A program made the translations under genes and the position numbers. The notes beneath the pieces are model-generated. The model saw nothing but the letters and a program-made list of their open reading frames with translations. It was not told the DNA's origin and ran no database searches. From Candidatus Sericytochromatia bacterium (GTDB lineage Bacteria; Cyanobacteriota; Sericytochromatia; S15B-MN24; JAQBPE01): a stretch of DNA of 37,009 nucleotides. How positions within the stretch are numbered: position 1 is the stretch's first letter; the number at the start of each line of letters is the position of its first letter. Location of the stretch: positions 1 through 37,009 of the forward strand of contig JAYKJB010000115.1 in the NCBI GenBank assembly GCA_035285325.1, given 5' to 3'. This document shows positions 3,829 to 35,908 of the stretch, piece by piece.

Positions 3829-3836
3829 CGCGGGTG

Positions 3837-17567: not shown

Positions 17568-17582
17568 CCCGTGGAGAACCTC

Positions 17583-20087: not shown

Positions 20088-22475
20088 CTATTCGTCGTCC
20101 TCGGCCGCTGAGTTGTCGGGCGGGGGCGTCACCGCCTGGAACGCGACGCTGAAGACGAGCTTGCGGATGCGGTGGTTGTCGCGGTCCGCCACGAAGATCT
20201 GCCCGTTGCGGTCGAGGAAGATTCCGGCAGGACCGTTGAAGCCCGCCACGTCGCCAGGACCGTCCTGGAAGCGCGCCCGGTTCTTGTGGCCTGCCAGGGT
20301 GTAGGTGCGTGCCGTTCCCAGCGCGATCTTGCGAATGGCGCAGCCCGTTTCTTCAGACACGTACAGGTCGCCGTCCTGGTTCATGACAATGCCCATCGGG
20401 CGAGTGAACATCGCCACCTGATTCGCGGGACCCGAGGCGGGACCATCCTGGGAGCCTGGCTGCCCCGTGGTCCCGGAGAGGGTCGACACCGTGCCGTCCG
20501 GGGTGATGCGCCGAATGGCGTGGTTGCTGCTGTCCGCCACGTACAGAATGCCACTGCCGTCGAGAAAGAGGCCGTGCGGGTGATGGAAGCGGGCCTCGCC
20601 TCCCTTGCCGTCTTTCAGGCCTGACCCCCCGCCCCCGGCATAGGTCGTGACGGTTTTTTCGGGGGTGTCCAGCGCGATCTTGCAGATGCGATGATTGACC
20701 GCATCGGAGACGAACAGGGTCTTGCCGTCCTGGCTCAGGGCGATGCCGCGGGGGTAACCGAAGCGGGCCTGGTCGCCCGGTCCATCGGCCATTCCGGCCA
20801 CGAGACTTCCGGCGATGCGCAACGGCGGCCGTCCATTGCGCACGCTGTACACGCTGTTGTCGGCCAGCACGAACAGGTTGTTCGGGCCGGCTGCGGTCAG
20901 GCCCGAGATGCCCGGCAGCGCCATGACGGCATCAAACGAGTCGGTGAAACTGGTGACCTTGCCCTCCCCGTCAATGCGCCGGATGCGGCCATTGCCGTTG
21001 TCTGAGATGTACAGCGTGCCCTCGGCATCGGCGGCCATGCCCCAAGGCATGTTGAAGCGAGCCTCCGAGGGGTTGCCATCCTCGTCGCCGCGCGAGCTTC
21101 CCAGATGCGTGGAGACGACCACGGCCGGGATGCCCGGGGGCGGATAGACAATGCCCTCGCGCTGACCCTCGCCTGCCTCGAAGGATTTGCCGTTGAGCCG
21201 CATCACGATGCCGGAGGTGGGCGTGAAGGCCAGCACCCCGTTTTCAAAAGCCTGCTGACGGTGGGGACCTTTGTGGGGGGTACCGGCCACCATCAGGTCG
21301 CCCGGGAGTTCCTCTTCGTCGCCCGTCGGGGCGCCAAGCGTCCAGTACTGGGCGGCTGAAATGTAGCGATCGTAAAACTCGTTGCGGATCAGTTTCGGGC
21401 CCTTGGGACCGTACAGCACCACCGCGTGCCCGCGCGTATCAGCCCCCCCGGTGAACCACTGCGCCGGCAGCCCATTCCAGAGCGCCACCTGGCTGCCCTG
21501 ACCGATGTCCCGCGGGATGCCGATCTGACGCGTCTTCACATAAGCGGCGAACGCATTGGCCAGCGGAGCGAGGTCGAGGCTGGCCACGCTCGCCACGGGC
21601 GGGATGACCTCCTCTTCGGTCAGCTCGACGTCCAGTTTTCCGGCGCTCTGGGCCGTCTTGAATTCCGTGCGGGTGGCGGACACCAGCGCGGAGCTGGTTT
21701 TGGCCAGGGCGGGCACCTTGGCCGCCATCTGCTCGAAGGTCTGGGCGGCCTTGATGGTGTTCGACAGGTCGATGCGGACATCGCCTTTGGCCACCTCCTG
21801 CGCCACCTCGCCGGTCAGTTTGGTGTAGTCGGCCACCGACAGGATGCGCAGGGCGGCCGGCTGGTCCCGCAACTGATGTCGCAGGTGTTCCGTGACGATG
21901 GTGGTGATGGGATTGACCTCCAGGTTCGGGCTGTCGACCCGTCCCAGGGCCGAGAGCGCGAAGCTGTCGAGTTGCACCTCGACGATCCAGTTGTTGCCGG
22001 GTGGTACGTCCGTGAAGGTGAAGCGTCCCTGGGCATCGGTTTCAACTGGGTTCACGCCGCGCACGCGGCGCCGGGAGGCATCGAGCAAGTGGGCCTTGCG
22101 CTTGGCGATCGGACGCATCTCCTCGGCGAGCAAGCGGAACACCGGCGGGAGCTGTTGCAGGAGCAAGTAGCCAGCCGTGTTGCTCGACAGGATGCCGCCC
22201 GCGTTGTTGGAGACCAGCCCTCCGGCATTGTTGGCCAGGATGCCGGCCGTGTTGGAGCTGATGATGCCCCCGCCGTTGGTGCTGAGCAGCGAGGCCGGGC
22301 TTCTGGCGACGCCTGTCAGCACGGGCCCCGTCGCCACCGCCGGCGCCTTGGGTTTGGCGCTGGCGGCTGCCTTGGCGCTTTTCGGGCGCACCGGCATATC
22401 GGACGGACCACAGGCAGCTGCCAGCAGGGCCAGCACGCAGGTGGCAGTGGTCAGAACGACGGGGTGCTTGCGCAT
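20088..22475 (-). CDS. NHL-repeat lipoprotein with octapeptide repeats (paralogue 1)
   Basis: 795 residues from the ATG at 22475 (CAGGAGAAG upstream). Lipobox AAAC puts the lipidated Cys at residue 22. An Ala/Lys/Pro linker is followed by five tandem octapeptides (residues 63-102; LLSTNGGG, IISSNTAG, ILANNAGG, LVSNNAGG, ILSSNTAG). A small regulatory-like sandwich (TDAQGRFTFTDVPPG) and a helical region lead to a C-terminal beta-propeller of NHL repeats. Clear blades read ARFNMPWGMAADAEGTLYIS, ARFGYPRGIALSQDGKTLFV, ARFHHPHGLFLDGSGILYVA, FTRPMGIVMNQDGDLYVS and FNGPAGIFLDRNGQIFVADR, each followed by N/G-x-x-I-R/C-K/R-I. NHL propellers bind proteins or ligands. It ends in a Pro/Asp/Glu tail. An outer-membrane, surface-exposed location is inferred. 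The divergent neighbour is hrpB. Confidence 0.9.
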   Translation of the reverse strand: MRKHPVVLTTATCVLALLAAACGPSDMPVRPKSAKAAASAKPKAPAVATGPVLTGVARSPASLLSTNGGGIISSNTAGILANNAGGLVSNNAGGILSSNTAGYLLLQQLPPVFRLLAEEMRPIAKRKAHLLDASRRRVRGVNPVETDAQGRFTFTDVPPGNNWIVEVQLDSFALSALGRVDSPNLEVNPITTIVTEHLRHQLRDQPAALRILSVADYTKLTGEVAQEVAKGDVRIDLSNTIKAAQTFEQMAAKVPALAKTSSALVSATRTEFKTAQSAGKLDVELTEEEVIPPVASVASLDLAPLANAFAAYVKTRQIGIPRDIGQGSQVALWNGLPAQWFTGGADTRGHAVVLYGPKGPKLIRNEFYDRYISAAQYWTLGAPTGDEEELPGDLMVAGTPHKGPHRQQAFENGVLAFTPTSGIVMRLNGKSFEAGEGQREGIVYPPPGIPAVVVSTHLGSSRGDEDGNPSEARFNMPWGMAADAEGTLYISDNGNGRIRRIDGEGKVTSFTDSFDAVMALPGISGLTAAGPNNLFVLADNSVYSVRNGRPPLRIAGSLVAGMADGPGDQARFGYPRGIALSQDGKTLFVSDAVNHRICKIALDTPEKTVTTYAGGGGSGLKDGKGGEARFHHPHGLFLDGSGILYVADSSNHAIRRITPDGTVSTLSGTTGQPGSQDGPASGPANQVAMFTRPMGIVMNQDGDLYVSEETGCAIRKIALGTARTYTLAGHKNRARFQDGPGDVAGFNGPAGIFLDRNGQIFVADRDNHRIRKLVFSVAFQAVTPPPDNSAAEDDE
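22170..22289 (-). repeat. Five octapeptide repeats in the first NHL lipoprotein
   Basis: Residues 63-102 are five gapless octads with consensus [LI][LIV][SA]x N x [GA]G. The Asn at position 5 and Gly at position 8 are invariant and positions 1-2 are always aliphatic. The DNA copies have diverged (TTGTTGGCC, TTGTTGGAG and similar), so this is an old protein-level repeat rather than a recent DNA slippage product. Confidence 0.9.
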
Positions 22476-22543
22476 GGCCTTCTCCTGAGGGTCGGTTCGC
22501 TGTGTTCTTCTCATACCCGACTTTGTTCCCTCGCGCGGTGGTC

Positions 22544-22549
22544 TATCAT
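22544..22549 (+). promoter_or_regulatory. Possible -10 box (TATCAT) giving a leaderless hrpB mRNA
   Basis: TATCAT ends 6 bases before the proposed GTG start at 22556. The only purine-rich stretch, GGGGAGG, abuts the GTG and is too close for a normal ribosome site. A start at about 22556 would make the mRNA leaderless. Confidence 0.4.
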
Positions 22550-22555
22550 GGGGAG

Positions 22556-24985
22556 GTGTCCGACCCTGCCTGCTATCCCATCGACGCGCACCTGCCGGCC
22601 ATCCGCGCCGCCCTGCAGGCCCACGGGCGCCTGGTGCTGCAGGCGCCGCCCGGCACCGGCAAGTCGACGCGCGTGCCCTGGGCGCTCACCGGCGAGGCGG
22701 GCGAGGTGGTGGTGCTTCAGCCGCGTCGGGTGGCGGCACGGGCGCTGGCGCAGCGGGTGGCGCAGTTGCTGGGTGAACCGCTCGGGCAACGCATCGGCTA
22801 TCGGGTCCGCTTCGACCGGGCTGGCGGCCCGCAGACGCGCCTGTGGTTCCAGACCTATGGCGTGTTCTGGCAGCGCGTGCGGGAACGGCCGGACCTGGCC
22901 GGGGTGGCCTGCGTGGTGCTGGACGAGTTCCACGAACGCAGTCTGGAAGCTGACGCGGTGCTGGCCTGGCTGACCCGCTTGCGCGAGAGCAAGCGCCCTG
23001 ACCTGCAACTCGTCGTCATGTCGGCCACGCTCGACGGGGAAAGCTGGCAGGGCGCCTGGGCCCAGGCGCCGTGTCTGTCGGTGGCCTCGGAAGCCCATCC
23101 GGTGGCCTTGGAATACTTACCGCCGCGTGCCGGAGAGGCCCTTCCGGCTCACGTCTTACGGGCCTTGCGCCACCTGGACGCCACCGCCCAGCAGGGCTCC
23201 GTGCTGGTGTTCCTGCCGGGCGTGGCCGAGATTCAGCGGACGGCCGACCTGCTCCAGCGCGAGTGGCCGGAGCGGGAGGTGCTGGCCCTGCACGGCGCCC
23301 AGTCCCCCGAGGCCCAGCAGCGCGCCTTGTCGCGCCCGGCCGAACGTGATTGCGTGGTGCTGGCCACCAACGTGGCCGAGACCAGCCTGACGATCGCGGG
23401 GGTGACGGCAGTGATCGACAGTGGCCAGGCGCGGATCGCGGATTACGACCCGGAGAGCGAGTTCGATCGCCTGCGGTTGGGGTGGGTGGCGCGCGCCAAC
23501 ATGATCCAGCGGATGGGGCGCGCGGGACGGACCGGTCCCGGACGTTGCCTCCGGCTCTGGGCCTCGTCGCTGGAAAGCAGCTTGCCCGAGGCGTTGCCCC
23601 CGGAACTCGCCCGGCGGGACCTGGCCCGGCTGGCCCTGGAGGTGGCGAGCCTGCCGGCGGCCCCGCTCTGGTTGCTCGCACCGCCCGAAGGGCCGTGGTT
23701 GCGCGCGCACGAGCGCCTGCGGCAGCTGGGTGCCCTGGACTCAGGCGGTGCTCTGACGCCGCTGGGGGAGCAGTTGTTGCGCTACCCGGTGGCCCCGGCC
23801 CACGCCAGGGTGCTGGTGGCGGCCGCTCTGGCGGGATGTTTCGAACTGGCGGCCGCGATGGTCGCGATTCTCGAGGTGGCCGATCGCCGCCGGATCGCCG
23901 ATGAGCCCGACCTGCTCTGGTTGGCGGTCGACATGTTACAGGCGTCAGGCCCGCGGCGGGCCGGTCACGCCTGGGAGCGGGACGTGCTGGAGACCTGGCG
24001 ACAGCTCTGTCGCGCGGCCCAGCCGCCGTTGCCGGCCCCATCGGCCCCGCGCGTCTGGGATGGCGAGACGTTGGCGGCGCAGCGGGAGGCGATCACCCGT
24101 TGCTGGCTGTTGGCCCTGCCGGAACGCGTGGCGGCACGAGGTGAGAAAGCCTACGTGTTGCGCGATGGCCGGCGTGGCCTGGTGCCCCAGGGGGATCCCC
24201 CCGAACTGATCCTGGTGCTGCAGTTACACGCCGTGGAGGCGGCCAGCGGTCGACACGCCACGATTCCCCTCTACTTGCCGCTGGAGGCCGCCTGGCTTGA
24301 GGCGGCCGAGACGTCTCGCTGCGTGGTGAGCTGGGATGCGGCGCGGGCGCGTGTGGTGCAGGAGCGCCACTGGGTGTCCGCCGGGGTGGTCACGCGACGG
24401 GAGACTCTGCCGCCGGAGGAATGGGACTGGCGGGCTGCGGAAAGCTTGATGGTCGAGAAATGGCTGGCCGGTGACCTCAGCTTGCCCGCCTGGGATGAGG
24501 AGGTAGCCAGCTGGGTCGCGCGGGTGCGCAAGGCGGCCGAGGTCTGGCCGGAGATGGGCATTCCGCGCCTCGAGCGGGATGACTGGGAAGTGCTGTATCA
24601 CGAAGTCGTTCAGGGCAAGACGGGGCTTGGGGGCATCACGCCACGCGAGCTGATTGCGGCATTGCACGATTACGTGGGCTGGGAGGCGATCGCCCGCATC
24701 GAGCGCGCTGCCCCGCTCAGCTGGAAATTGCCGTCGGGGCGCAGCGCCCGGATTCGCTATCCGGAAGAGGGCCCGCCGGAACTGTCGGCTCGCCTCGGTG
24801 ACATGATCGGCCTGGGGGGCACCCTATCGCTCTTCGAGGGGCGCGTGCCCGTGCTGTTCGACATTCTGGCCCCGAATTACCGCACGGTTCAGAAAACCTT
24901 CGACATGGACGGGTTCTGGGCCCGCACCTATCCCGAGGTCAAGAAGGAGTTGCGTCGCCGCTACCCCAAGCATCCCTGGCCGTAG
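22556..24985 (+). CDS. hrpB: ATP-dependent helicase HrpB
   Basis: 809 residues if started at GTG 22556, matching E. coli HrpB in length; a GTG at 22502 would add 18 residues with no ribosome site. DEAH-type RNA-helicase motifs: PPGTGKST (motif I, about 31-38), LQPRRVAARALAQR (Ia), DEFHER (II, 123-128; Phe replaces the usual Ala, as is common in HrpB), SATLD (III, 156-160), TNVAETSLTIAGV (V) and QRMGRAGRTGPG (VI). The HrpB-specific C-terminal domain ends in the family signature LFDILAPNYRTVQKTF and RYPKHPWP. The biochemical role of HrpB is poorly defined; it is presumed an RNA helicase, and links to mRNA or cell-envelope functions have been proposed. It is monocistronic and converges on the rseB-like gene 55 bases downstream. 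Confidence 0.95.
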   Translation: MSDPACYPIDAHLPAIRAALQAHGRLVLQAPPGTGKSTRVPWALTGEAGEVVVLQPRRVAARALAQRVAQLLGEPLGQRIGYRVRFDRAGGPQTRLWFQTYGVFWQRVRERPDLAGVACVVLDEFHERSLEADAVLAWLTRLRESKRPDLQLVVMSATLDGESWQGAWAQAPCLSVASEAHPVALEYLPPRAGEALPAHVLRALRHLDATAQQGSVLVFLPGVAEIQRTADLLQREWPEREVLALHGAQSPEAQQRALSRPAERDCVVLATNVAETSLTIAGVTAVIDSGQARIADYDPESEFDRLRLGWVARANMIQRMGRAGRTGPGRCLRLWASSLESSLPEALPPELARRDLARLALEVASLPAAPLWLLAPPEGPWLRAHERLRQLGALDSGGALTPLGEQLLRYPVAPAHARVLVAAALAGCFELAAAMVAILEVADRRRIADEPDLLWLAVDMLQASGPRRAGHAWERDVLETWRQLCRAAQPPLPAPSAPRVWDGETLAAQREAITRCWLLALPERVAARGEKAYVLRDGRRGLVPQGDPPELILVLQLHAVEAASGRHATIPLYLPLEAAWLEAAETSRCVVSWDAARARVVQERHWVSAGVVTRRETLPPEEWDWRAAESLMVEKWLAGDLSLPAWDEEVASWVARVRKAAEVWPEMGIPRLERDDWEVLYHEVVQGKTGLGGITPRELIAALHDYVGWEAIARIERAAPLSWKLPSGRSARIRYPEEGPPELSARLGDMIGLGGTLSLFEGRVPVLFDILAPNYRTVQKTFDMDGFWARTYPEVKKELRRRYPKHPWP

Positions 24986-25040
24986 TGCCGGATCGCGTAG
25001 CCAATCCATTCTCTGCTGACCGCCGCGATGGGCGTCGCCA

Positions 25041-26054
25041 TCAGGGCGTGTTCTCGGCCACCTGGTTCAACCAGGCTTCCGGACACTCCCCCACCAGGGT
25101 GTAGGCCGTTGGGCCCTGTTGCCAGCTCAGCAGTCGCTTGTGGCCGTGCTGAAGCGCAAATCCGGGGTGGCCACCGATCCGGATTGGTTGTCCCTCTGCG
25201 GGCCGACGGGCCTGGCTGCGGGCGTCGGTCGCAAAGCAGGACAGCAAGGCCAGTCCATCGTGAAAGCGCCAGGCAAAGGTGGGCACCTGACGATGGTCCA
25301 GGAAGTATTGCCATTGAATCAGGGCGTAGCCGGCGGGCAGCTGGCGGGGGGGCGGCGGTCGCCATGTCAGGCCGACCGGCAAGGGGGTCGCGGCATCTCC
25401 CCGCGCCAGCATCGTATTCTGGGACTGAACCTTGACGGCGGCGGGCAATTGAAAGGTCAGGGCCCTGGCCGCCTCCACGGGGTTCAGGCGCAGGCTGAGA
25501 AATTCCGAGCGGTCGACCAGCCGCCCTTGCTCATCGCGGCGTTCCACCACGAGCGGCAGCCGCGTCAGCTGGTCGACCCACAGGCGATGGGTCAGGTTGC
25601 CGTGCTGGCGCGGTCGGAACTGCGCCAGCAGGGTCAGGCGCTGGAGGTGTCGCAACTGCCCGAGCACGCGGAAGTCGTAATTGCGTTTCACCAGGGCCAG
25701 GCGTTGCGAGAGGCTGCCCTCCGACTCCGTGGCCGACACGGTGACCTTGCCCTGGCGGGGCGCGTAGTGCCAGCGCACGCCGCCGTTCACGGTGACCAGA
25801 TCGCTCAGGTGACCCTGGGCGTCCAGGAACTCCTGGCGCGTCCCGCGTGAGCCCACCTGCGTGACGCGCAGGCGGCGGACCTTTTCACCACGTTCGCTGA
25901 AGGTGGTGACCTTGATCAGCCCGCTGTAGTGCAGGGTTTCCCGGGCCCTCAGGATCGCGTCCGGCGTCAGCGGGGCCGCCTCGACCTGGCCGGGGCCAGC
26001 CAGGCCCGAAAGCCCGAAGAACCAGAGCAGGCCGAGTGAGCGACGCCACCTCAC
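25041..26054 (-). CDS. RseB/MucB-like periplasmic sigma-regulatory protein
   Basis: 337 residues. The start is the GTG at 26054, which overlaps the anti-sigma stop as GTGA; a longer open frame reaching 26267 lies entirely on the anti-sigma gene and is spurious. The N-terminus (RSLGLLWFFGLSGLAG, cleavage near VEA) is a signal peptide. The N-terminal domain is LolA-like, as in RseB: ILRARETLHYSGLIKVTTFS, then VTQVGSRGTRQEFLDAQG and WHYAPRQGKVTVSATESEG. The C-terminal MucB/RseB domain contains LPAGYALIQWQYFLDHRQVP and HDGLALLSCFATDA. In E. coli RseB binds the periplasmic part of the anti-sigma factor RseA and shields it from DegS until lipopolysaccharide or misfolded envelope proteins release it. 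The same logic is likely here, with the preceding zinc anti-sigma factor as partner. Confidence 0.88.
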   Translation of the reverse strand: MRWRRSLGLLWFFGLSGLAGPGQVEAAPLTPDAILRARETLHYSGLIKVTTFSERGEKVRRLRVTQVGSRGTRQEFLDAQGHLSDLVTVNGGVRWHYAPRQGKVTVSATESEGSLSQRLALVKRNYDFRVLGQLRHLQRLTLLAQFRPRQHGNLTHRLWVDQLTRLPLVVERRDEQGRLVDRSEFLSLRLNPVEAARALTFQLPAAVKVQSQNTMLARGDAATPLPVGLTWRPPPPRQLPAGYALIQWQYFLDHRQVPTFAWRFHDGLALLSCFATDARSQARRPAEGQPIRIGGHPGFALQHGHKRLLSWQQGPTAYTLVGECPEAWLNQVAENTP

Positions 26055-26542
26055 GGGTCGAGTCCGTAGCTGGCCTCGACGGTGTCGACCGCCGGGCCGA
26101 AGCGGCTCGTCAGACTCTCCTCCAGGTCGAACGCGTCGTGCTGATGCCAGTACGTGTCGAGATCGGCCACCGGTACAGGCGGGCCCCAGACCCCGTCCGA
26201 GAGCCAGGCCAGCCCTCCACTCCAGAGCAGGATCAACACGCTCGCGGCCACCGCCACGCCCGGCCAATGGCGCGACAGCTGCTCAGGCAGGCGCAGGCGA
26301 CGTGGTGCGGGCGGTTCGTGCCGGAGTTCCTCGGCGATCGCCTGCCACAGGTCCCGCTGAGGCGTCGGTTCAGGCAGGGCCCGCAGCGCCTGGATCATCG
26401 GCACCCAGTCGATCAGCATGTCGGCACAGGCCCCGCAGTGGTGCAGGTGCGCCTGCACGGCCCGCTCCTCCTCGCTGGTCAGGCTGCCGTCGAGGTAAGC
26501 CGAGATGGCCTCGAGCCAGGCCTCACAGGCGGCTGGTTTCAT
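26051..26542 (-). CDS. Membrane-bound zinc anti-sigma factor (zf-HC2)
   Basis: 163 residues from the ATG at 26542 (GGGAG 8 bases upstream; an adjacent GTG would add one residue). It overlaps the 3' end of the sigma gene by 20 bases. The cytoplasmic N-terminus has the ZAS fold: a helix with ISAYLDGSLTSEEERAVQAH followed by the zinc motif H32-x3-C36-x2-C39 (HLHHCGAC). After a basic linker, one transmembrane helix is visible (WPGVAVAASVLILLWSGGLA, about 92-111), and then a 50-residue periplasmic tail rich in Asp and Glu. It should sequester the sigma factor encoded just upstream and release it on signal. The periplasmic tail is the natural binding site for the RseB-like protein encoded next. This is a ZAS-type factor, not a classical RseA. 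Confidence 0.92.
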   Translation of the reverse strand: MKPAACEAWLEAISAYLDGSLTSEEERAVQAHLHHCGACADMLIDWVPMIQALRALPEPTPQRDLWQAIAEELRHEPPAPRRLRLPEQLSRHWPGVAVAASVLILLWSGGLAWLSDGVWGPPVPVADLDTYWHQHDAFDLEESLTSRFGPAVDTVEASYGLDP

Positions 26543-27152
26543 CACGCAGATCTCCCAACCAGGCTTGCACCTGCTTGCGCGCGCGCGCGAGGCGCGACTT
26601 CACGGTGCCGAGCTGGAGCCCCAGGGTCTCGGCGATCTCCTCATAAGACAGGTCCTGGATGTCCCGCAAGACCAGCACGGCGCGGTAATCGGGGGCCAGC
26701 TGGGCGATCGCCGCTTCGATGCGGCTGCGCAGTTCCGCCTGGGCCACCGCTTCCTCGGGCCCCGGGCTGGAGGCGGGCAAACGCTCGCCCAGCGGCGTGG
26801 CGCTGGGGTCTTCCGCGGGCGTTTCGAGCGATTCGTGAACAAAACGTCGTTCAGCCCGGGCCAGATGGTTCAGGCAATGGTGGGTGGCGATCTGGTACAG
26901 CCAGGTCTTGAAGCTGCTCTGGCCTTTGAAGTCAGGCAGGCCCCGAAAGGCTTTCAGAAACACGTCCTGCACCAGGTCTTCGGTTTCGGGCGCCCCATGC
27001 AGCATGCGATACACGAGCTGATGGATGGCGGCTTGATGGCGACGGAAAAGGGCTTCCATCGCCTTGCCGTCGCCTGCCCGCGCGCGCGGCAGCAGGGTGC
27101 TTTCCGGTAGGTCGATGACTTCTCGGGCCACAGGGGAATGGTCCGTCTTCAC
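26523..27152 (-). CDS. ECF sigma factor (RpoE-like, sigma-70 family)
   Basis: 209 residues from GTG 27152; a longer frame to 27239 would read through the promoter and is unlikely. Region 2 is clear (about 32-100): ALFRRHQAAIHQLVYRML, ETEDLVQDVFLKAFRGL and FKGQSSFKTWLYQIATHHCL. Region 4 lies at about 144-196 (LAPDYRAVLVLRDIQDLSYE, EIAETLGLQLGTVKSRLARA). There is no region 3, so this is a group-4 (ECF) sigma directing RNA polymerase to envelope-stress promoters. The operon order sigma, ZAS anti-sigma, RseB-like protein, all overlapping, makes an envelope-stress module. Its start codon forms a GTGA overlap with an 11-codon upstream frame, and a palindrome lies just upstream. Confidence 0.95.
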   Translation of the reverse strand: MKTDHSPVAREVIDLPESTLLPRARAGDGKAMEALFRRHQAAIHQLVYRMLHGAPETEDLVQDVFLKAFRGLPDFKGQSSFKTWLYQIATHHCLNHLARAERRFVHESLETPAEDPSATPLGERLPASSPGPEEAVAQAELRSRIEAAIAQLAPDYRAVLVLRDIQDLSYEEIAETLGLQLGTVKSRLARARKQVQAWLGDLRDETSRL

Positions 27153-27184
27153 GGTCCCGTACGGGACGTGGCGTGGGGCGTCAT
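27149..27184 (-). CDS. Putative 11-codon leader minigene overlapping the sigma start
   Basis: ATG at 27184 opens a frame MTPHATSRTGP whose TGA (27151-27149) overlaps the GTG start of the sigma gene (27152-27150) as GTGA. The ATG lies where transcription should begin (6 bases after the TACAAT box), so the minigene would be translated leaderless and feed ribosomes to the sigma start. This rests only on geometry and the frame is very short. Confidence 0.4.
   Translation of the reverse strand: MTPHATSRTGP
27154..27167. promoter_or_regulatory. Perfect 14-bp palindrome (GTCCCGTACGGGAC) in the sigma leader
   Basis: The palindrome lies between the predicted transcription start and the sigma GTG. 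With no loop bases it is better suited to a dimeric DNA-binding protein than to an RNA hairpin, and would act as a roadblock operator. It also contributes the only GGGA that could serve as ribosome site for the sigma gene. Confidence 0.45.
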
Positions 27185-27190
27185 GGCGCC

Positions 27191-27196
27191 ATTGTA
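27191..27196 (-). promoter_or_regulatory. Predicted -10 box (TACAAT) of the sigma operon
   Basis: TACAAT on the minus strand, with TGGCAC 18 bases upstream as a poor -35. ECF operons are often autoregulated, but no typical ECF -35 (GGAAC-like) is visible here. Confidence 0.5.
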
Positions 27197-27278
27197 ATGC
27201 CGGCAGCGGGATTCGTGCCACGGGAAGTGCGGAGGGCATATCCGCTCTGACCGGCGGGGCGCGATTTGGTTCCCGAAG

Positions 27279-28550: not shown

Positions 28551-28619
28551 GGCAATCGGCTCCATCACGTCGTCGGGAAGGGCAGCCTCATGAAAGCAGG
28601 TCGAGCGCCCCAACGCAAA

Positions 28620-28643: not shown

Positions 28644-28662
28644 ACAGGGTTGCAGGCCGGGT

Positions 28663-29016
28663 TCAGCGGACGATGTCGCCCTCGATCACGAGCGACCAGG
28701 GCGAATAGAGGCCGAACGTGAGGGAGGTGATCAGACCGTCGACCAGGTCGATTTCGCGGGTCAGGCGCACGTGCTGCGCACGCTTGCCGCCTGCCTGCTT
28801 GACTTCCCGCGCAATCGCTTCCCGGACGAGCTTTTCGTTGGGGTTGACCAGCCCCAGCAACAGGTGGGTCGATTTCAGCTCCGTCCGGAAGGTTCGGACG
28901 GCCTCTCCCGGTTGCATCGCGCTCATCCCATCCAGGTCGTAGGAGACGCGGAAGCAGCCCGTCAGCGCGGTGGCGAGCAGGCCCGCGGTCAGGAGTTTGA
29001 GGAATTTCGTTTGCAT
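28663..29016 (-). CDS. Bor/Iss-like small lipoprotein, copy 2
   Basis: 117 residues from the ATG at 29016 (AAGGAG about 9 bases upstream); two earlier in-frame ATGs lie too close to or before that site. Lipobox LTGC gives lipidated Cys21. The mature part contains FRTELKSTHLLLGLVNPNEK, then a helix (AIAREVKQAGG), then LVDGLITSLTFGLYSPWSLV. That H-x-L-x-x-G-L plus [LV]xGL[IL]xxxTxGxYxP pattern matches the Bor/Iss family of lambda and E. coli, outer-membrane lipoproteins linked to serum resistance. Helix and ends are clearly homologous to the preceding gene (AVAREVKRAGG; VEGDVVR versus IEGDIVR), so the two arose by tandem duplication. The start lies 14 bases after the stop of copy 1, so they share a transcript. 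Function here is unknown. Confidence 0.82.
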   Translation of the reverse strand: MQTKFLKLLTAGLLATALTGCFRVSYDLDGMSAMQPGEAVRTFRTELKSTHLLLGLVNPNEKLVREAIAREVKQAGGKRAQHVRLTREIDLVDGLITSLTFGLYSPWSLVIEGDIVR

Positions 29017-29030
29017 GAACATCTTCTCCT

Positions 29031-29402
29031 TCAACGCACCACGTCGCCTTCGACGGTGGAGGTGGTGGGCACGTACAGCGTACCGCCGGTCAGGCTCCCA
29101 ATCAGGCCGTCGAGCAGGGTTTCCTGATGCGTGATGCGCACGTTGGCCGCGGCCCGGCCGCCGGCTCGCTTGACTTCACGGGCCACCGCCTCCGCGATCT
29201 CCGCGGAGTTGCTGATGGTCAGCAGGCCCGAGAACAGGTGGTGGTGCTTGACCTCGAGCTTGAAGCTGCGAATGGTCTGGGGTTTCGGCTGCGCGGAGCC
29301 GTAGATGTCATCGACGTTGAAGCTCAGCGTGTAGCAGCCGGTCAAGGCGGTGGCACAGGCCACAGCAGCGAGGCCGCGCAGCACGCGGGTTGGCAAGCCC
29401 AT
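29031..29402 (-). CDS. Bor/Iss-like small lipoprotein, copy 1
   Basis: 123 residues from the ATG at 29402 (AAGGAAC upstream). The signal sequence ends in lipobox LTGC (Cys23). The mature part reads YTLSFNVDDIYG, then FKLEVKHHHLFSGLLTISNS, a helix (IAEAVAREVKRAGG), VRITHQETLLDGLIGSLTGG and a terminal VEGDVVR. The HHHLFSGL segment is close to the HHFFVSG of Bor, and TLLDGLIGSLTGGTLYVPTT aligns with the Bor C-terminal motif. The protein is paralogous to the next gene but diverged in its N-terminal third. It is the first gene of a two-gene operon ending in the hairpin at 28620-28643. In enterobacteria Bor/Iss proteins sit in the outer membrane; a role in surface protection here is inference. Confidence 0.82.
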   Translation of the reverse strand: MGLPTRVLRGLAAVACATALTGCYTLSFNVDDIYGSAQPKPQTIRSFKLEVKHHHLFSGLLTISNSAEIAEAVAREVKRAGGRAAANVRITHQETLLDGLIGSLTGGTLYVPTTSTVEGDVVR

Positions 29403-29488
29403 GAATGAGTTCCTTTCAGACGAGGGGAGGACGGCGCGCCAGCCTAGCATGCGCGCTGCCTGTCTGCAAGGAACTCTCCCGTGAGGGC

Positions 29489-30103
29489 TCAGCGACCCTT
29501 GTTCGAGAGTTCAGGGTTGTTGACCTCGCGCGCCAGGATGATCGCGTCGGCGATCTCGCGCAACGGCTTGCGGCTGTTCATCGACAGCTTCTGGATGCGG
29601 CGGAAGGCTTCCGCTTCCGTGATGCCGTAGGTGTCGATCAGGATGCCCTTGGCCTTCTCGACCAGCTTGCGCGTTTCCAGCACGTCCTTGAGGTTCGCGA
29701 TCTCGTCGCTGAGCGCCTGCATCTCTTCCGCCCGGCTCATGGCCACCTCGATCGTGGGCATGATGTCCGCCTCCTTGATCGGCTTGACCAGGTAGGCGAA
29801 CACGCCCAGTTCCACGGCCTGCTCGACCAGCTCGGGCGCGGAGTAAGCCGTCACCATGATCACCGGGATGCGGCGCTTGCCCGGCTCGTTGATGGCCTTG
29901 ACGGCCTCCAGCCCGTCCATGTGGGGCATCTTCACGTCCATGACGATCAGGTCCGGCTCCAGCTTGGCCGCCAGTTCCACCGCCACGCGGCCATCCACGG
30001 CCTCGCCCACCACCTCGTGACCGCGCTCTTCCAGCATTTCTTTCATGTCCAGCCGGATGATCGACTCGTCATCGGCGATCAGGATGCGCAGGCGTTTGCT
30101 CAT
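29489..30103 (-). CDS. ANTAR-domain response regulator (PdtaR/AmiR-NasR type)
   Basis: 204 residues with AAGGAG upstream of the ATG at 30103. The receiver domain covers about 1-122: acidic pocket DDE (11-13), phospho-acceptor Asp56 in IVMDVKMP, switch Thr in VTAY and conserved Lys in YLVKP. A coiled segment leads to an ANTAR domain (about 135-195): LKDVLETRKLVEKAKGILID, EAEAFRRIQKLSMNSRKPLR and EIADAII, with the aromatic/alanine pattern of the family. ANTAR proteins bind paired hexaloop hairpins in nascent RNA and prevent termination after phosphorylation-driven dimerisation. The gene immediately upstream encodes a HisKA_2 kinase, matching the PdtaS-PdtaR and EutW-EutV pairs. It has its own -10 box inside the end of the kinase gene. 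I found no hexaloop pair nearby, so targets are presumably elsewhere. Confidence 0.94.
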   Translation of the reverse strand: MSKRLRILIADDESIIRLDMKEMLEERGHEVVGEAVDGRVAVELAAKLEPDLIVMDVKMPHMDGLEAVKAINEPGKRRIPVIMVTAYSAPELVEQAVELGVFAYLVKPIKEADIMPTIEVAMSRAEEMQALSDEIANLKDVLETRKLVEKAKGILIDTYGITEAEAFRRIQKLSMNSRKPLREIADAIILAREVNNPELSNKGR

Positions 30104-30130
30104 GGGGCGGTCTCCTTCAACGGGCTCTTC

Positions 30131-30161
30131 ATTATAGGCTGCTTCATGTTTCCCGGATCAA
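30131..30161 (-). promoter_or_regulatory. Internal promoter of the ANTAR regulator gene
   Basis: On the minus strand TTGATC (30161-30156), a 19-base spacer and a perfect TATAAT (30136-30131) lead into the regulator 28 bases later. The -35 and part of the spacer lie in the last codons of the kinase gene, so the regulator can be made independently of the kinase. Confidence 0.65.
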
Positions 30162-31607
30162 GGAGCCGGGGGCGGGATGCGGCACCAGCAGGCTGATGCG
30201 CGTCCCGGCCGGGTGTTCGATCGTGAGCTGGCCTTGCAGGTCGTCCCGCACCAGGGTCTTGATGATCTGCCAGCCCAGGTTGCCGTCCCGTTCGGGCGTG
30301 AAGTCGGCCGGCATGCCGACGCCATCGTCCTCGATCGTGAACAGCACACCCTCGTCCAGTTCCTGCAGGCCCACCCGCACGTGGCCCTGCGGGCGCCCGC
30401 TGAATGCGTGCTTGATGGTGTTTTGCAGCAGTTCGTTGACCACCAGGGCGGTGGAGGTGGCCTGGGCCGAGGGCAGGGTGACCGGGGCCGGGCAGTCCAG
30501 ACTGGTCGTGATGCGCTGCGAAGGGTCCACGAGTCCCTGCAGGGTCGAGGAAATCAGGTTCTGTACCAGGTCCTTGACGTCGACCACGCCCACGTCGTCG
30601 TGGCTCAGGTACTCGTGCACCAGGGCGATGCTGGCGATGCGGGCGATGCTTTCCTGCAGGATCGCCTTGACCTCTTCGTTGCGGCTGCGACGGGACTGCA
30701 GGCGCAGCAGACCCGCCACGGTCTGAAGGTTGTTCTTCACGCGGTGGTGGACCTCCTTGACCAGCGTGCTCTTCACCACGATCTCGCGGTCCTTCTGCTT
30801 GAGTTCGGTGACGTCGTGCAGCACCTTGACGTGGTCCACGAAGCCGTCCGATGGTTGCACCGGAATGGTGCGCACGGCCATGGTGAGGTTCTGGGTCACC
30901 AGTTCGTTCTCGCTGAAGACCGGGTTGGTGTGGACCGGCCGGTACTCGTGCTGGGTGACGAAGGTCTGGTGCCAGTCGAGCCCTTCGAGCTGTTCCGGCA
31001 CGCCGAGGCGCCGGGCCAGGTTCAGGGCCACGGCGCTGGCGTGCATGATCGTGCCGGCGTCGTTGAGCAGCAGCAGCGCGTCACCAGGCTGGATGGGCGG
31101 CAGCGCGAGCGAGCTCACGCGCGCCTTTTCGATCAGGGTTCGGACCAGGCGGGTGATCGCCGTGCGGTAGAGCTGGCGCTTGCTTTCCGCGTGCTTGAGT
31201 TCCTCGTACAGGTTGCGCTCGACCACGATCAGGGCGGCCACGCCGTCGACGCCGACCAGGGGGTAGGCCACCTGGTTCATGGGTTGCCCGTTCACCACCT
31301 TGCCGATCGCCCCATCGGCGAGTTCCCCGGAGTGGAAGGCCTGCCAGATGGCGGACGAATGCTCCGGGGTGAAGATGTGACCAACCTGCGGGCGGCGGTA
31401 GAAGCTCTGGCGGACGGTCGGCTTGGCTTCGGCAATGGTGACGAAGCGTCCGCCCTCCAGCGGCGCGTGGATCAGCAGGTCGGCGGGAATGAAGTCCGCC
31501 AGGAACGGCAGTTGCCGGGCAATGTTCTGGATCCAGAACCGGTCGGGTTCCTGGGGAATGTGTTCCTGAAAGGGCAGGGACCAGGCCATCCCGTTGGTCT
31601 GGATCAT
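30144..31607 (-). CDS. PdtaS-like soluble sensor histidine kinase (HisKA_2)
   Basis: 487 residues from the ATG at 31607; the frame continues upstream but only across the end of tyrS, where it has no support. The N-terminal region (about 15-165) matches the GAF-like sensor of PdtaS-type kinases (FTPEHSSAIWQAFHSGELAD, VAYPLVGVDGVAALIVVERN). A PAS domain follows (about 172-270: ALLLLNDAGTIMHASAVALN ... VKVLHDVTELKQKDREI). The phospho-acceptor segment is VKEVHHRVKNNLQTVAGLLR, with His287 as likely phosphate site and the HHRVKNNLQ signature of HisKA_2. The ATPase domain shows VVNELLQNTIKHAF (N box) and EDDGVGMP (G1). There is no transmembrane helix, so it senses a cytoplasmic signal. It lies between tyrS and its cognate ANTAR regulator on the same strand. 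Confidence 0.93.
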   Translation of the reverse strand: MIQTNGMAWSLPFQEHIPQEPDRFWIQNIARQLPFLADFIPADLLIHAPLEGGRFVTIAEAKPTVRQSFYRRPQVGHIFTPEHSSAIWQAFHSGELADGAIGKVVNGQPMNQVAYPLVGVDGVAALIVVERNLYEELKHAESKRQLYRTAITRLVRTLIEKARVSSLALPPIQPGDALLLLNDAGTIMHASAVALNLARRLGVPEQLEGLDWHQTFVTQHEYRPVHTNPVFSENELVTQNLTMAVRTIPVQPSDGFVDHVKVLHDVTELKQKDREIVVKSTLVKEVHHRVKNNLQTVAGLLRLQSRRSRNEEVKAILQESIARIASIALVHEYLSHDDVGVVDVKDLVQNLISSTLQGLVDPSQRITTSLDCPAPVTLPSAQATSTALVVNELLQNTIKHAFSGRPQGHVRVGLQELDEGVLFTIEDDGVGMPADFTPERDGNLGWQIIKTLVRDDLQGQLTIEHPAGTRISLLVPHPAPGSLIRET

Positions 31608-31680
31608 CGGTCGTCGGCCTCGTCGGGAGTGGGGCCGTTCAGCCTGGCTTGCTGGGCCAGCCAGCGGCCGGACGCCCCCT

Positions 31681-32907
31681 TCACGGGGTGGTGCCGTCCG
31701 GTTTGGCGTGGGCCATGCGCTTGCCGACCTGCACGACCTGCCCGTCCGGCCCCAGGGCGATCGCCTCGTTGGGGTCTGACAGCACCCGTTCGACCGCATA
31801 ATGGTCGCCTTCGGCCCGCAGCAGTTTCACGGCCCCCTCTTTCAGGCGCTCACGCGCCTGGCTGGTGGAGTTGGCCATTTTCAAGGCCACCAGCAAGCGG
31901 GCCACCGGCGTGCCGTCCGGCACCGCGAAGGCGGGCATATCGGCCGTATCGAGCGAGCCACTGGCCAGTTTCTCGGCCACGGCCGGCCCATGATACAGGC
32001 TGACGATCGCCCGCGCCAGCCGCACCTTGGCGTCGCGTGGGGGCAGTTGACCTGCCGCCAGGTCCGCCAGCAGGCGCCGGATTTCAGGAGCCGGCAAGCC
32101 GGAGGCCAGGGTGAAGTAATCCGGCATCTGGCGGTCCGCGATGCACATGACCTTGTCCCACATCGCCTTGGGCGCATCCGTCAGGCCGATCGTGTTGCCG
32201 AGCGACTTGGACATCTTCTCGGTGGTGCCGATGCCTTCGAGAATCGGGTAGAGCATGACCACCTGGGGCGCCTGGTGCGCCTGTTCTTGCAGGTGCCGCC
32301 CCATCAGGTTGTTGAACTTCTGGTCGGTGCCGCCCAGTTCCACATCGGCGTGGATCACCACCGAATCCTGCCCTTGCAGCAGCGGATACAGAAACTCGTG
32401 CAGCCCGATCGCATCGCCCCGCTCGTGCCGCAGGGCAAAGTTTTCCCGCTGCAGCATCTGGGCCACGGTCGACTGCCCCAGCAGGCGAATCACCGATTCC
32501 ATGGCCATGGGTTCCAGCCACTCGCCGTTGCGGCGAATCTCGGCCCGACTCAGATCGATGATGCGCCCGAGCTGATCGAGGTAGGTCTGGGCATTGGCCT
32601 CGACCTCGTCCTTGGTGAGCGGGGGACGGGCCTCTTGCTTGCCGGTGGGGTCACCGATGCGCGCAGTGAAGTCGCCGATGATCAGCACCACCTGGTGTCC
32701 CGCATCCTGAAAGCGTCGCAGCGCCCATAGCACCACGGCATGACCGATGTGCAGGTCGGGTTTGGTCGGGTCGAAGCCCAGCTTGACGCGCAGGGGTCTC
32801 CCCTCGGCGGCCGCGGCTTTCAACCTGGCCTCGAGCCCTCCGGCGGGCAACACCTCGGCGGCGCCCAGGGTCAGGGTGTCCACAAGCTCGGGTGAGAAGG
32901 CGGTCAA
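31681..32907 (-). CDS. tyrS: Tyrosyl-tRNA synthetase (TyrZ-like)
   Basis: 408 residues, starting at TTG 32907 with AGGAG 8 bases upstream and a perfect TATAAT -10 about 35 bases upstream. No better start exists, because longer in-frame extensions cross that promoter. It charges tRNA-Tyr with tyrosine (class Ic). Motifs: KLGFDPTKPDLHIGH with the HIGH box at 53-56, LIIGDFTARIGDPTGK, QGQDSVVIHADVELGGTDQK (tyrosine-binding Gly-Gly-Thr-Asp-Gln) and KMSKS at 231-235. A C-terminal S4 RNA-binding domain spans about 340-405 (VARLLVALKMANSTSQARER). The DLHIGH form and length match the TyrZ/type-2 branch. No T-box leader is present in the 27-base leader. It is followed after 73 bases by the histidine kinase gene, so the two may be cotranscribed. 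Confidence 0.96.
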   Translation of the reverse strand: MTAFSPELVDTLTLGAAEVLPAGGLEARLKAAAAEGRPLRVKLGFDPTKPDLHIGHAVVLWALRRFQDAGHQVVLIIGDFTARIGDPTGKQEARPPLTKDEVEANAQTYLDQLGRIIDLSRAEIRRNGEWLEPMAMESVIRLLGQSTVAQMLQRENFALRHERGDAIGLHEFLYPLLQGQDSVVIHADVELGGTDQKFNNLMGRHLQEQAHQAPQVVMLYPILEGIGTTEKMSKSLGNTIGLTDAPKAMWDKVMCIADRQMPDYFTLASGLPAPEIRRLLADLAAGQLPPRDAKVRLARAIVSLYHGPAVAEKLASGSLDTADMPAFAVPDGTPVARLLVALKMANSTSQARERLKEGAVKLLRAEGDHYAVERVLSDPNEAIALGPDGQVVQVGKRMAHAKPDGTTP

Positions 32908-32940
32908 GGGCGTCGCTCCTGGAATCGCGCGGGAGGCGCC

Positions 32941-32946
32941 ATTATA
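32941..32946 (-). promoter_or_regulatory. -10 box (TATAAT) of tyrS
   Basis: On the minus strand GTGCTATAATGG matches the consensus -10 exactly, with a TG two bases before it as in extended -10 promoters. A start near 32934 gives a 27-base leader containing AGGAG. No -35 is evident. Confidence 0.7.
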
Positions 32947-33037
32947 GCACGCGGCCTGGGCTGACGCGGGAGACGGGACCGGGCCAGGGGCCTGCGCTCG
33001 CAGCCGTCGGGGCGGTGCGCGTCGCAGACGCGGGGGG

Positions 33038-35908
33038 CTAGAACGAGCCGGCCGGCAAGACGCGCACCAGGTTGGCCCCCACGTCGGCGATGACCAGGCG
33101 GCCCTGCGCATCGATCAGCAGGTGGGTCGGCAAGACCAGCGCGTCGCCGGCGTTGGCATCGGCGAAGAAGCGTCCTCCGGGGCCTGCCAGCACGCTGGTG
33201 GCCCCGTTGGGCGCAATTTTCAGGATTCGCGCCGGCACCTTGGGCAACTCGCTCAGCGGCAATTCTCCGACACCCTTGGCCAACCCTGCCAGCAGCGTCA
33301 GATTGGCCGTGCCGAGCTCGCCGACATAGAGGTTCCCGCGGGCATCGAAACAGAGGGGCCCCGGCACCATCAAGGGGGTGGCCGAGGCCACCAGGTCACC
33401 TCCCGAGAAGTCTCGACTCTCGATGCGCAGCACCGTTTGGATGCGATTGAGGCCCGCGAAATTTTCCAGCGTTCTGGCGCTGTCGGCGCCCCCACGGATT
33501 CGTCGAATGCGCAGATTGCCGCTATCCGAGATGTACAGGTCGCCGTCGGGGGAGAAGGCCAGCCCGAAGGGCGAGTTGAGCCGGGCTTCCACCGGGGCCA
33601 CGCCCTCACCTGAATCACCGCCCTTGCCACCCAGGCCCGCCACCAGCGAGATGGGGCCATTCGGGGGCAGTCGCAGCACCTGGTTGTCCTTCACCGAGGC
33701 CCAGTAGAGCGCCTTGTCGGGACCGCGCGTCAGGGCGATGCAGGAACTCATGTCGTAGCTGTTGGTGGCCACCGGATCGCCCGCCACCACGGGGCCCTGG
33801 GAGATCCCCTTGACGACCGTGCGGCTGGGCCGATTTTCACTGACCTCGACCAGGCGTCCGTTGCCTTCATCGATGATGAACAGCGAGCGGTCTCGCCAGG
33901 CCAGGCTGATCGGGGTGTTCAGCCTGGTCTGGGTGGCGGGTTGACCATCCTCGCCGGAGCCGTCGAGCGAGCCGGCAAAGGTTTGCAGGCTGCTGCCGTC
34001 CCAGCGCTTGATCAGCCCGCCGGCGGCCTCGGCAATGTACACGTTGCTGGCCGCATCGAGCGCCAGCGCCACGGGCGAGTTGACGGACACGCCGTCTTGC
34101 GCCGAGATGCTGTCTTTCTTGCCCGCCACCGCCACCACCTCGCCGCTGGCCAGGGTCAGCTCGAAAATCCGATTGTCGGCTCTGGAGACCACGCGCAACT
34201 TGCCATTCGCCAGCAGTTGCAGGTCCGTCGGTTGTTTCAGTTCGGAGTCGGCCGTGGCTTCGTAAACGGTTTCCCGGGCGCCTTCGGGTTTCCAGCGCCA
34301 GATCCGATTTTCGTCAGGCTCACTGCCATACAGGGTGCCGTCCTCCGTGACGACCAGATCGCCATACCGACTCACGCCCCCCTTGCCACTCAGCACCGGG
34401 GTCCATTCCGACCCGCCCGGGGCCAGCCTGGCGACCTCGTACTCCTGCTTCGCGGACGTGTTGCCCGGCACGAACAGGGCATACACGCTGCCGTGCGCGG
34501 CGGCCCCCAGCCCGGTCACCGAGCCGCCTGTCCAGCGGGCTGGCACCGGTGCCGGCTCCGACAGGGAGTTGTCCGCGCCGAGCTTGAGGATGCGCGGGGG
34601 AGTGGCCAGATCGCCGCCTTGGCTCGTCTCGCCAATCCACAAGACGTTCTCGCGGTCCACCCAGAGGGTCCAGGGCAGGATCGCCGTCTGGTCGGCCGGG
34701 GTGGTGAGGGGGCCACGCCCGATGCGCGTGGCGCCCGCCACCCGGCGCACGCTGCCGTCGGGGCCGATGCGCTGGACGCCCTGGCCGTCGTGCGAGGAAA
34801 TGACGTAGACCGCCCCATCGGAGCCCCGCGCGAGGTCGAAGGCCGAGTAAAAATTGACCTTGATCGCGCCCTGAAGCTGGTCTGCCCAGGTTGTCAGCAG
34901 TCCGTTGGCACTGACCTGGCGGATCCGGCCCAGCGCCCCCTCGGTGATGAAAAATCCGCCGGCCCCGTCATCGGCGATCGCCTTGGGACCAGACAGCGGC
35001 ACCGCCAAGGCCGACAGGCCATTGCCCAGGTTCGCCTGGCCAAGCAGCAGCGCTTCGATCGCCTCCAGGCTGGTCTGGACCGGCTTGGCCTGGCCACGCA
35101 GGGTGGCGGTCAACTTGGCCAGTTCCTCCACCTTGTAGACCGGCGCTTGGGCGAGCAGGCCGCGAGCGGCCTCCAGGCTCTCACGCAGGCGGACGGCCTC
35201 GACGGCTGGCAACTTGTCGAGCGTCTTGGTGCTGCCCTGGACCAGCCGTTCGAGCACGTAGGCGGCGCCCAGCGAGGAGGCCGTGTCGATCGGGGTTTCG
35301 GCTTCCTGGGCCGCGTCACGTGGGGCGATCGCCAGCAGCACGCCCTGGTTCCAGAGCGGCACGCGCAGCACCAGGTTTTCGGTCGGCAAGGTGGCCTGGA
35401 TGCGGTACTGGCCTTGCGGGTCCGAGACGGCTCCCAGGGGCTGCAGGCGTTCGTTCACCAGGATCCGTCCGGCGCCATCGACCACGTACACGTCGGCCTC
35501 GGCCAGGCTGGCTTCGGTCGGTGCCGGGCGGGGCCCGGCCTGCAGCAATTTGGCCTGCCCCGCGAGGCTGCCCCCGTTGTTGGCCACCAGGTTGCCGCCC
35601 TGATTGCTGATGACGGTGCCCCCCTGATCGCTCAGCAGGGTGCCCGAGCGGTTGCTGATGACGCCGCCACCCTGGTCCGAGAGCAGCTTGACCTTGCCCG
35701 TCAGCAGGCTGGTTTGGGCGGTCTGGGGCACCACGCGGGTGCGGGCGCCCTCCGGCAGTTTGAGCGCCGGGGCGCTCAGCACCGAGGAGGCTGGGCGGGT
35801 TGGCGCTCGCTTGGGGCTGGTGGGACTGTCTTCCGCGGCCGGCGGCTTGGGGCCGCAACTCGCCAGCACCGTGATCAGGACCAGGGCAGCGCAGCGCAAG
35901 CGTCTCAT
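33038..35908 (-). CDS. NHL-repeat lipoprotein with octapeptide repeats (paralogue 2)
   Basis: 956 residues from the ATG at 35908 (GGGGAGAG just upstream). Lipobox LASC puts the lipidated Cys at residue 18. The order of parts equals that of the 795-residue protein at 20088: a Pro/Ala/Ser linker, five octapeptides (75-114; LLSDQGGG, VISNRSGT, LLSDQGGT, VISNQGGN, LVANNGGS), a small regulatory-like sandwich (SDPQGQYRIQATLPTENLVL), a helical region, and a long beta-propeller region. Blades include GSDGAVYVISSHDGQGVQRI, NSPVALALDAASNVYIAEAA, NTPISLAWRDRSLFIIDEGN, NSPFGLAFSPDGDLYISDSG and a final THLLIDAQGRLVIADVGANL. Blade number may exceed one propeller. It is presumably outer-membrane-anchored with the propeller exposed. 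Partner and ligand are unknown. It ends 130 bases upstream of the tyrS start on the same strand, and that gap has no gene. Confidence 0.9.
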   Translation of the reverse strand: MRRLRCAALVLITVLASCGPKPPAAEDSPTSPKRAPTRPASSVLSAPALKLPEGARTRVVPQTAQTSLLTGKVKLLSDQGGGVISNRSGTLLSDQGGTVISNQGGNLVANNGGSLAGQAKLLQAGPRPAPTEASLAEADVYVVDGAGRILVNERLQPLGAVSDPQGQYRIQATLPTENLVLRVPLWNQGVLLAIAPRDAAQEAETPIDTASSLGAAYVLERLVQGSTKTLDKLPAVEAVRLRESLEAARGLLAQAPVYKVEELAKLTATLRGQAKPVQTSLEAIEALLLGQANLGNGLSALAVPLSGPKAIADDGAGGFFITEGALGRIRQVSANGLLTTWADQLQGAIKVNFYSAFDLARGSDGAVYVISSHDGQGVQRIGPDGSVRRVAGATRIGRGPLTTPADQTAILPWTLWVDRENVLWIGETSQGGDLATPPRILKLGADNSLSEPAPVPARWTGGSVTGLGAAAHGSVYALFVPGNTSAKQEYEVARLAPGGSEWTPVLSGKGGVSRYGDLVVTEDGTLYGSEPDENRIWRWKPEGARETVYEATADSELKQPTDLQLLANGKLRVVSRADNRIFELTLASGEVVAVAGKKDSISAQDGVSVNSPVALALDAASNVYIAEAAGGLIKRWDGSSLQTFAGSLDGSGEDGQPATQTRLNTPISLAWRDRSLFIIDEGNGRLVEVSENRPSRTVVKGISQGPVVAGDPVATNSYDMSSCIALTRGPDKALYWASVKDNQVLRLPPNGPISLVAGLGGKGGDSGEGVAPVEARLNSPFGLAFSPDGDLYISDSGNLRIRRIRGGADSARTLENFAGLNRIQTVLRIESRDFSGGDLVASATPLMVPGPLCFDARGNLYVGELGTANLTLLAGLAKGVGELPLSELPKVPARILKIAPNGATSVLAGPGGRFFADANAGDALVLPTHLLIDAQGRLVIADVGANLVRVLPAGSF
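35567..35686 (-). repeat. Five octapeptide repeats in the second NHL lipoprotein
   Basis: Residues 75-114 are five gapless octads with consensus [LV][LIV][SA][DN][QNR]x G x, the same periodicity and copy number as in the first NHL lipoprotein. Asp-Gln-Gly-Gly and Asn-Gln-Gly-Gly variants alternate (octads 1 and 3 almost identical, 2 and 4 similar), hinting at duplication of a 16-residue pair. Confidence 0.9.

Follow-up and report, generated by a model that had tools for sequence, protein, structure and literature searches.

A lineage-restricted octapeptide repeat of variable number in a large family of Sericytochromatia lipoproteins

Two genes on one contig of a Candidatus Sericytochromatia bacterium encode proteins with the same general plan: a signal peptide and lipobox, a linker, five gapless octapeptides (octads), a small sandwich and an NHL propeller. 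What kind of element is the octad tract, and does the equal number of repeats in the two proteins carry any meaning? The sequence analysed, referred to here as the window, is a stretch of 37,009 nucleotides (contig JAYKJB010000115.1, assembly GCA_035285325.1). Both genes, P0001 and P0002, are on the minus strand, and the plus-strand frames at both positions contain stops. Their parts, in window coordinates, are as follows.

20088–22475 (read 22475–20088), minus strand: P0001, octad-NHL lipoprotein of 795 amino acids; lipobox LAAAC, Cys at residue 22
22290–22322, minus strand: P0001 residues 52–62, entry segment VLTGVARSPAS, strand-A-like by sequence and by analogy with the P0002 model
22170–22289, minus strand: P0001 residues 63–102, octads 1–5, LLSTNGGG IISSNTAG ILANNAGG LVSNNAGG ILSSNTAG, from the sequence
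21930–22109, minus strand: P0001 residues 123–182, prealbumin/CarboxypepD_reg-like sandwich core, from the family HMM and a weak PF13620 match
21111–21578, minus strand: P0001 extra segment with a weak LGFP-like unit (E 0.14; 13 bits, cut-off 22)
20160–21059, minus strand: P0001 residues ~473–772, NHL β-propeller (PF01436 E 2.5e-33, 5 stretches; NHL matches at 20160–21056; TEN_NHL 56.9 bits)
33038–35908 (read 35908–33038), minus strand: P0002, octad-NHL lipoprotein of 956 amino acids; lipobox LASC, Cys at residue 18
35678–35710, minus strand: P0002 residues 67–77, predicted strand A, SLLTGKVKLLS, running into octad 1 (AF2 strand, fragment 13–23)
35567–35686, minus strand: P0002 residues 75–114, octads 1–5, LLSDQGGG VISNRSGT LLSDQGGT VISNQGGN LVANNGGS, from the sequence
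35297–35518, minus strand: P0002 residues 131–204, remainder of the predicted prealbumin/CnaB/CarboxypepD_reg-like sandwich (AF2 pLDDT 72–97; VIA-align Z 5–6)
35045–35284, minus strand: P0002 residues 209–288, predicted helical region (AF2 helices at fragment 155–169, 173–176, 181–197, 206–219 and 221–234)
33041–35005, minus strand: P0002 residues 302–956, NHL-type propeller region (TEN_NHL 59.7 bits, cut-off 27.1; NHL 33.8 bits)

The NHL repeats of P0001 scored 112.8 bits, and the NHL (PF01436) and TEN_NHL matches of both proteins exceeded their cut-offs of 20 and 27.1 bits. With a lipobox identified by eye in each, these matches bear out the initial annotation of the pair as NHL-propeller lipoproteins; a lipobox-like pattern is present in 63 of 75 family members. 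The sandwich is less conspicuous in sequence. CarboxypepD_reg (PF13620) matched P0001 with 16.9 bits (E 0.008), below its curated cut-off of 32.3 bits, and a Pfam search gave no match to this family in P0002 at E 1 or better. A profile built from 13 other rows, with P0001 left out, recognised the P0001 sandwich at residues 123–182 with a domain E of 4e-7, calculated for a single sequence. The common order of parts claimed for the two proteins holds in outline; the exceptions are a P0001-specific stretch of ~150 residues before the propeller, with no counterpart seen in P0002, and the helical region of P0001, which the profile from the other 13 rows did not recognise.

Other proteins of the window were noted in passing. 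Two more (17–1573 and 17571–18680, both plus strand) have CarboxypepD_reg above the cut-off and are without octads. At 8310–10634 (minus strand) lies a 774-residue Cys-rich protein with tandem repeats of type GAEPAIAQALPQPV and no Pfam family at E 0.001. An RseB-like protein (MucB_RseB; 25041–26267, minus strand) adjoins a protein that by eye resembles an ECF sigma factor (26523–27239, minus strand), an arrangement like that of an envelope-stress pair.

The octads are real and not a product of chance. Exactly five gapless octads had been reported at residues 63–102 of P0001 and 75–114 of P0002, and both tracts were confirmed by the sequence and by shuffling: a relaxed motif, [LIV][LIV][SA][NDST][NQR]x[GA], fits 10 of the 10 octads, and shuffling each protein 20,000 times never produced two or more such octads in register. 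The stricter motif given originally, [LIV][LIV]S[ND]NxGG, fits one of the ten letter for letter and was not retained. In the organism's own genome a two-octad DNA pattern gave 31 matches in 12 loci, and the reversed control gave none. No Pfam family above its cut-off covers the octads of P0001, P0002 or the relatives tested, in keeping with the earlier statement that the octad has no named domain, and we found no description of the repeat among the open-licence papers listed for octapeptide repeats, β-solenoids, or the NHL repeats and lipoproteins of Sericytochromatia.

Adjacent octads were then compared residue by residue, leaving tracts with fewer than three octads or a low total score out of the codon and lag counts. 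Among 1309 identical residues, 434 were encoded by different codons and 875 by identical codons, against 770 expected from codon usage. Since the residues are kept while the codons differ, the pattern is held by selection at the protein level, with some recent duplication. Identity was 0.613 at lag 1 and 0.606 at lag 2, giving no sign of the 16-residue alternation of a two-octad coil. Two variants of the spacing were seen among the relatives. In L037 (G000 contig C67, frame 3030–5012, minus strand; no Pfam family) VVSKTR units about 16 residues apart precede the octads, so that 16-residue and 8-residue repeats appear to adjoin; L038 (G000 contig C74), a protein without any Pfam match, has a nine-residue spacing (SLISNNSGG repeated).

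These counts bear on the main rival to a structured repeat. According to this rival the tract would be a low-complexity loop, flexible and for the most part disordered; its 24-bp in-frame tandem repeats would be tolerated, contribute little to function, and drift in number for want of constraint. Against such a loop, proteins throughout the order retain the hydrophobic-hydrophobic-S-N-N pattern despite changes of codon. The composition of the octads also speaks against it: judging from the residue table, they contain much I, V and L and few charged residues or prolines, which is not what disordered linkers usually look like.

The initial annotation took the equal repeat number of two paralogues as a sign of a functional unit. 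As judged from their sequences, P0001 and P0002 are remote paralogues and not a close pair. Over the module comprising octads, sandwich and helical region they are 17% identical, and the identity of P0002 to the 12 relatives in the same alignment is 34–49%. Pairwise BLAST aligned the octads and sandwich of the two proteins as one piece (30% over 217 columns), the other pieces being propeller against propeller, and the closeness of the pair was therefore judged by a tree of the module. Rows with fewer than 70 matched positions and duplicates were dropped from this tree, leaving 75 rows, and 17 of its 72 inner branches were starred. P0002 fell among the 26 members of a supported set; a supported split separates it from P0001, which grouped with two other proteins.

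The number of octads varies widely. Among 82 sampled modules the longest tract had four octads most often (26 modules), with none in 11, one in 1, two in 6, three in 16, five in 16, six in 3, seven in 2 and nine in 1; loci entered the sample either because they hold octads or because they ranked high in the module search, and the lengths are those of this sample and not a genome-wide distribution. Some of the 11 modules scored as lacking octads are affected by frames cut by the locus end (L035 frame 1, scored 0, is one such frame). Counted by tract, with a minimum of three octads, 80 tracts comprised 19 of three, 34 of four, 17 of five, 5 of six, 3 of seven and 2 of nine. At least 42 changes of octad number are required on the 75-row tree.

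Orthologues differ as well. A G005/G008 pair from one genus, 87% identical, has four octads against two, and a G003/G006 pair from one family, 68% identical, has 1+3 against 1+4; the differences of four against two and of three against four consist of whole octads. A second G005/G008 pair (85%) scanned as 2+1 against 3+1, with a degenerate first unit, and its true numbers may be equal. The annotation had proposed a search of other genomes for a fixed copy number; the sampled tracts range from 2 to 9 octads, and the number changes between orthologues. Free variation among orthologues is one half of what the annotation named as speaking against its view, disorder of the octads being the other. 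Fixed copy number as a sign of function is thus ruled out by the paralogue tracts, the orthologue pairs and the changes on the tree. Because the pair is distant in the tree and octad number varies among paralogues and orthologues, the count of five in both P0001 and P0002 is a coincidence and does not mark a functional unit. Drift of octad number even between congeneric orthologues is what a disordered, unconstrained loop would show, and the sampled modules in which the scan found no octads, some of them cut by the locus end, fit that reading too.

To place the tract in the protein, we used an AF2 model of the P0002 module. The mean pLDDT of the model was 80, with the sandwich and helices mostly at 90 or above and the last helical block at 69. 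Along the modelled fragment, strand A occupies residues 13–23 and the octad tract residues 21–60, and the next strand begins at 77. Transthyretin-like, carboxypeptidase-D and CnaB structures were aligned to this model by VIA-align with Z of ~5–6 over a span from 13 to 154–159, a level below that which is telling on its own; the top Z was 6.9. Foldseek gave no match under E 0.001 for the P0002 model, for which the best E was 5e-3, or for a model of the relative L082. The structural matches start at strand A and resume after the tract, which is thus modelled as an excursion of the A–B loop and not as a stalk. On the evidence of the model, the tract would be inserted in a prealbumin-like sandwich, between its strands A and B.

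Sequence comparisons locate the tract directly after an LTGKVK-type segment in P0001, P0002 and their closest kin. L117, L087 and L097 belong to another subfamily, in which the tract breaks the CarboxypepD_reg motif GxVxGLDGxPAxxVxVxGY one loop later. When the tract was removed from these three proteins the PF13620 match was raised or restored in all three (17.7 to 19.2 bits, none to 16.6 and none to 16.2), every score staying below the cut-off. In four proteins of the A–B-loop type, removing the tract never brought the first positions of the family into the PF13620 match (23.5 to 24.8, 39.1 to 38.8, 23.8 to 23.5 and 19.2 to 20.2 bits). In the L082 model strand A was not clearly placed in the sandwich, and the structural matches begin at ~147–160.

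The initial annotation had suggested a stalk lifting the propeller from the membrane. As an in-series element of a fixed number of units, such a stalk would draw on the position of the tract, which is N-terminal to the sandwich core and the propeller in sequence, and on the octads that some relatives (L082, L118) also carry before strand A. In the P0002 model, however, the sandwich includes strand A, which comes before the tract. With strand A and the following strand of the same sandwich on either side of it, the tract adds no length between the lipid and the propeller, and the stalk is therefore disfavoured. The variable number of octads, and the holding of the tract by an internal sandwich loop in L117, L087 and L097, likewise count against it, and we consider a stalk highly unlikely.

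The annotation had also raised the idea of a β-solenoid, and here the models differ from tract to tract. The nine-octad tract of L082, with near-identical octads, was modelled as regular β structure, with an EE--E--- pattern of eight residues and pLDDT of 69–78 in blocks 11–70. The octads of P0002 gave pLDDT of 72, 55, 41 and 36 in successive blocks of ten, and a second L082 tract, of six octads, gave ~42–55 in a model with a pTM of 0.37. The β-solenoid idea agrees with the L082 nine-octad tract, and the low values of the P0002 octads and of the six-octad tract would be seen with disorder too. Neither Foldseek nor VIA-align found a solved relative of the octad tract for the P0002 and L082 models, although such a relative may exist. 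The low pLDDT of P0002 speaks for a disordered loop, and the regular β structure of the nine-octad tract speaks against it. Weighing these points with the conserved pattern and composition, we judge a disordered loop rather unlikely, while regarding it as the main rival; a short β-stack is the preferred reading of the models, and a plausible one.

A different β structure would be an intertwined trimeric β-helix like the needle of T4 gp5, in which the octads would oligomerise three lipoproteins. The gp5/VgrG triple-stranded β-helix also has an eight-residue repeat with hydrophobic, Gly and Asn/Asp positions; in the excerpted text of PMC3004832 the gp5 octapeptides have Gly at position a, Asn/Asp at b and Val at g. 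A needle of this kind is compatible with any octad number, and in a phmmer search with the L082 tract VgrG and gp5-type spikes ranked first, at E values (0.1 and 0.57) that are not significant. The registers differ, however, since the Gly and hydrophobic positions of the octads, compared by eye, superpose poorly on that of gp5, and the PDB matches are of low complexity. A short loop insert that returns to its own sandwich also suits an intertwined needle badly, in contrast to the terminal needle of gp5. We think a trimeric needle very unlikely.

Other known proteins share parts of this plan. The sandwich core resembles the CarboxypepD_reg (PF13620)/transthyretin-like and CnaB/SdrD_B domains: the relative L103 reaches 39.1 bits, above the cut-off of 32.3, and the fold matches have Z of 5–6. 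The family described here differs from these domains in its tract of 2–9 octads in the A–B or a later loop. Bacterial teneurin-like proteins appear to have in common with it a TTR-like sandwich followed by an NHL propeller, in the domain order given by the excerpted text of PMC6425310; the TTR-like match is here a structural one, with Z of ~5–6, and teneurin TTR domains were among the VIA-align matches of the P0002 model. The present proteins differ in having a helical domain at the place of the FN-plug, in being lipoproteins, in their octads and in the absence of YD/RHS, no family of these repeats matching P0001 or P0002 in Pfam at E 1 or better. In teneurins, according to the same excerpt, adhesion specificity is set by the NHL propeller. 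The 16-residue repeats of the ice-nucleation protein, and other β-solenoids, resemble the octads in their short β segments, polar turns and octapeptide sub-units (excerpted text of PMC3918373); the octads are few, and are without the 16-residue alternation and without Thr-x-Thr.

How widely is the repeat distributed? A profile of the octad-sandwich-helix module (A1) was run on 18 genomes of the class. All 10 genomes of the order matched, and the other 8, from elsewhere in the class, did not. There were 37 matches in the organism's own genome, 160 in the 7-Mb genome of the relative G001 (150 of 407 candidates scored, at least one frame being matched twice) and 2 to 12 in the remaining genomes of the order. 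When the two-octad DNA pattern was searched in 59 genomes around the organism, counting its own, it matched 9 of the order's 10; the tenth, G004, has the module with weaker octads. Eight of the 49 genomes outside the order gave one or two matches each, which were not tract-like. NHL expansion was rejected as a mark of the order, as NHL was present in 18 of 18 genomes of the class, with 5 to 150 matches.

A three-octad DNA pattern was searched in 84,980 species genomes and gave 34 stretches, 32 of them in four MAGs of the lineage (27 in Cyanobacteria bacterium RYN_339, 2 in DBS2-1.bin124, 2 in NC_groundwater_1444 and 1 in Sericytochromatia bacterium S15B-MN24 CBMW_12) and 2 unrelated. Of these last two, LLGDNRAT, in an Eremiobacterota bin, is probably a chance frame, and the tandem LFGNDGGG octads in a Deltaproteobacteria bin (L091, near position 3500), with no sandwich seen, are probably unrelated; both were set aside after inspection. 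An origin in phages or viruses was discarded, the viral collection containing no three-octad stretch. As far as searched, the repeat looks confined to one order beside the photosynthetic cyanobacteria. The octad is a genuine repeat without a name, restricted to one lineage and carried by a large family of lipoproteins.

The best overall explanation, in our view, is that the tract is a portable, length-variable β-repeat inserted in a sandwich loop of surface NHL lipoproteins, to which we give a probability of about 0.5. The structural part of this explanation, taken by itself, we regard as fairly likely. The host protein consists of a lipid anchor, a linker rich in P, A and S, the sandwich and the NHL propeller, in most cases with a small helical domain between the last two. 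Each octad would supply a hydrophobic two-residue β segment (L/I/V at positions 1–2) and an Asn/Gly turn (N/D/Q at 4–5, G/A at 7), and neighbouring octads would probably stack as a short parallel β-solenoid or β-stack that leaves the sandwich and returns to it. With the tract as a loop excursion, whole octads could be gained or lost without disturbing the sandwich fold.

The functional part is more tentative. In a diderm lineage, a residue other than Asp at position +2 after the lipobox Cys points to the outer membrane. Neither lipobox has Asp at +2, and P0001 and P0002 are therefore likely to be located at the outer membrane or cell surface. The octads might there form a common self-association or edge-pairing surface that packs many paralogues side by side, and the divergent propellers may serve specific binding; the combination of varied propellers with one anchor and one repeat would fit binding heads mounted on a self-associating base. 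Self-association as such we hold to be possible and somewhat doubtful. Distinctly less probable is a shared assembly code, by which divergent lipoproteins would co-assemble edge to edge into a mixed coat, tract length tuning the pairing and the propellers providing a binding repertoire.

The cell surface is poorly known in this order, a sister lineage of the cyanobacteria that lacks photosynthesis and is represented almost entirely by metagenome bins. Should the tract prove to be a self-pairing β element, the family would offer a compact system for relating repeat number to surface assembly, in which natural orthologues already differ by whole octads. The octad and its host module, restricted to the order as far as searched and expanded to about 160 matches in one genome, would make up a large share of the surface proteome and would serve as a marker of the group.
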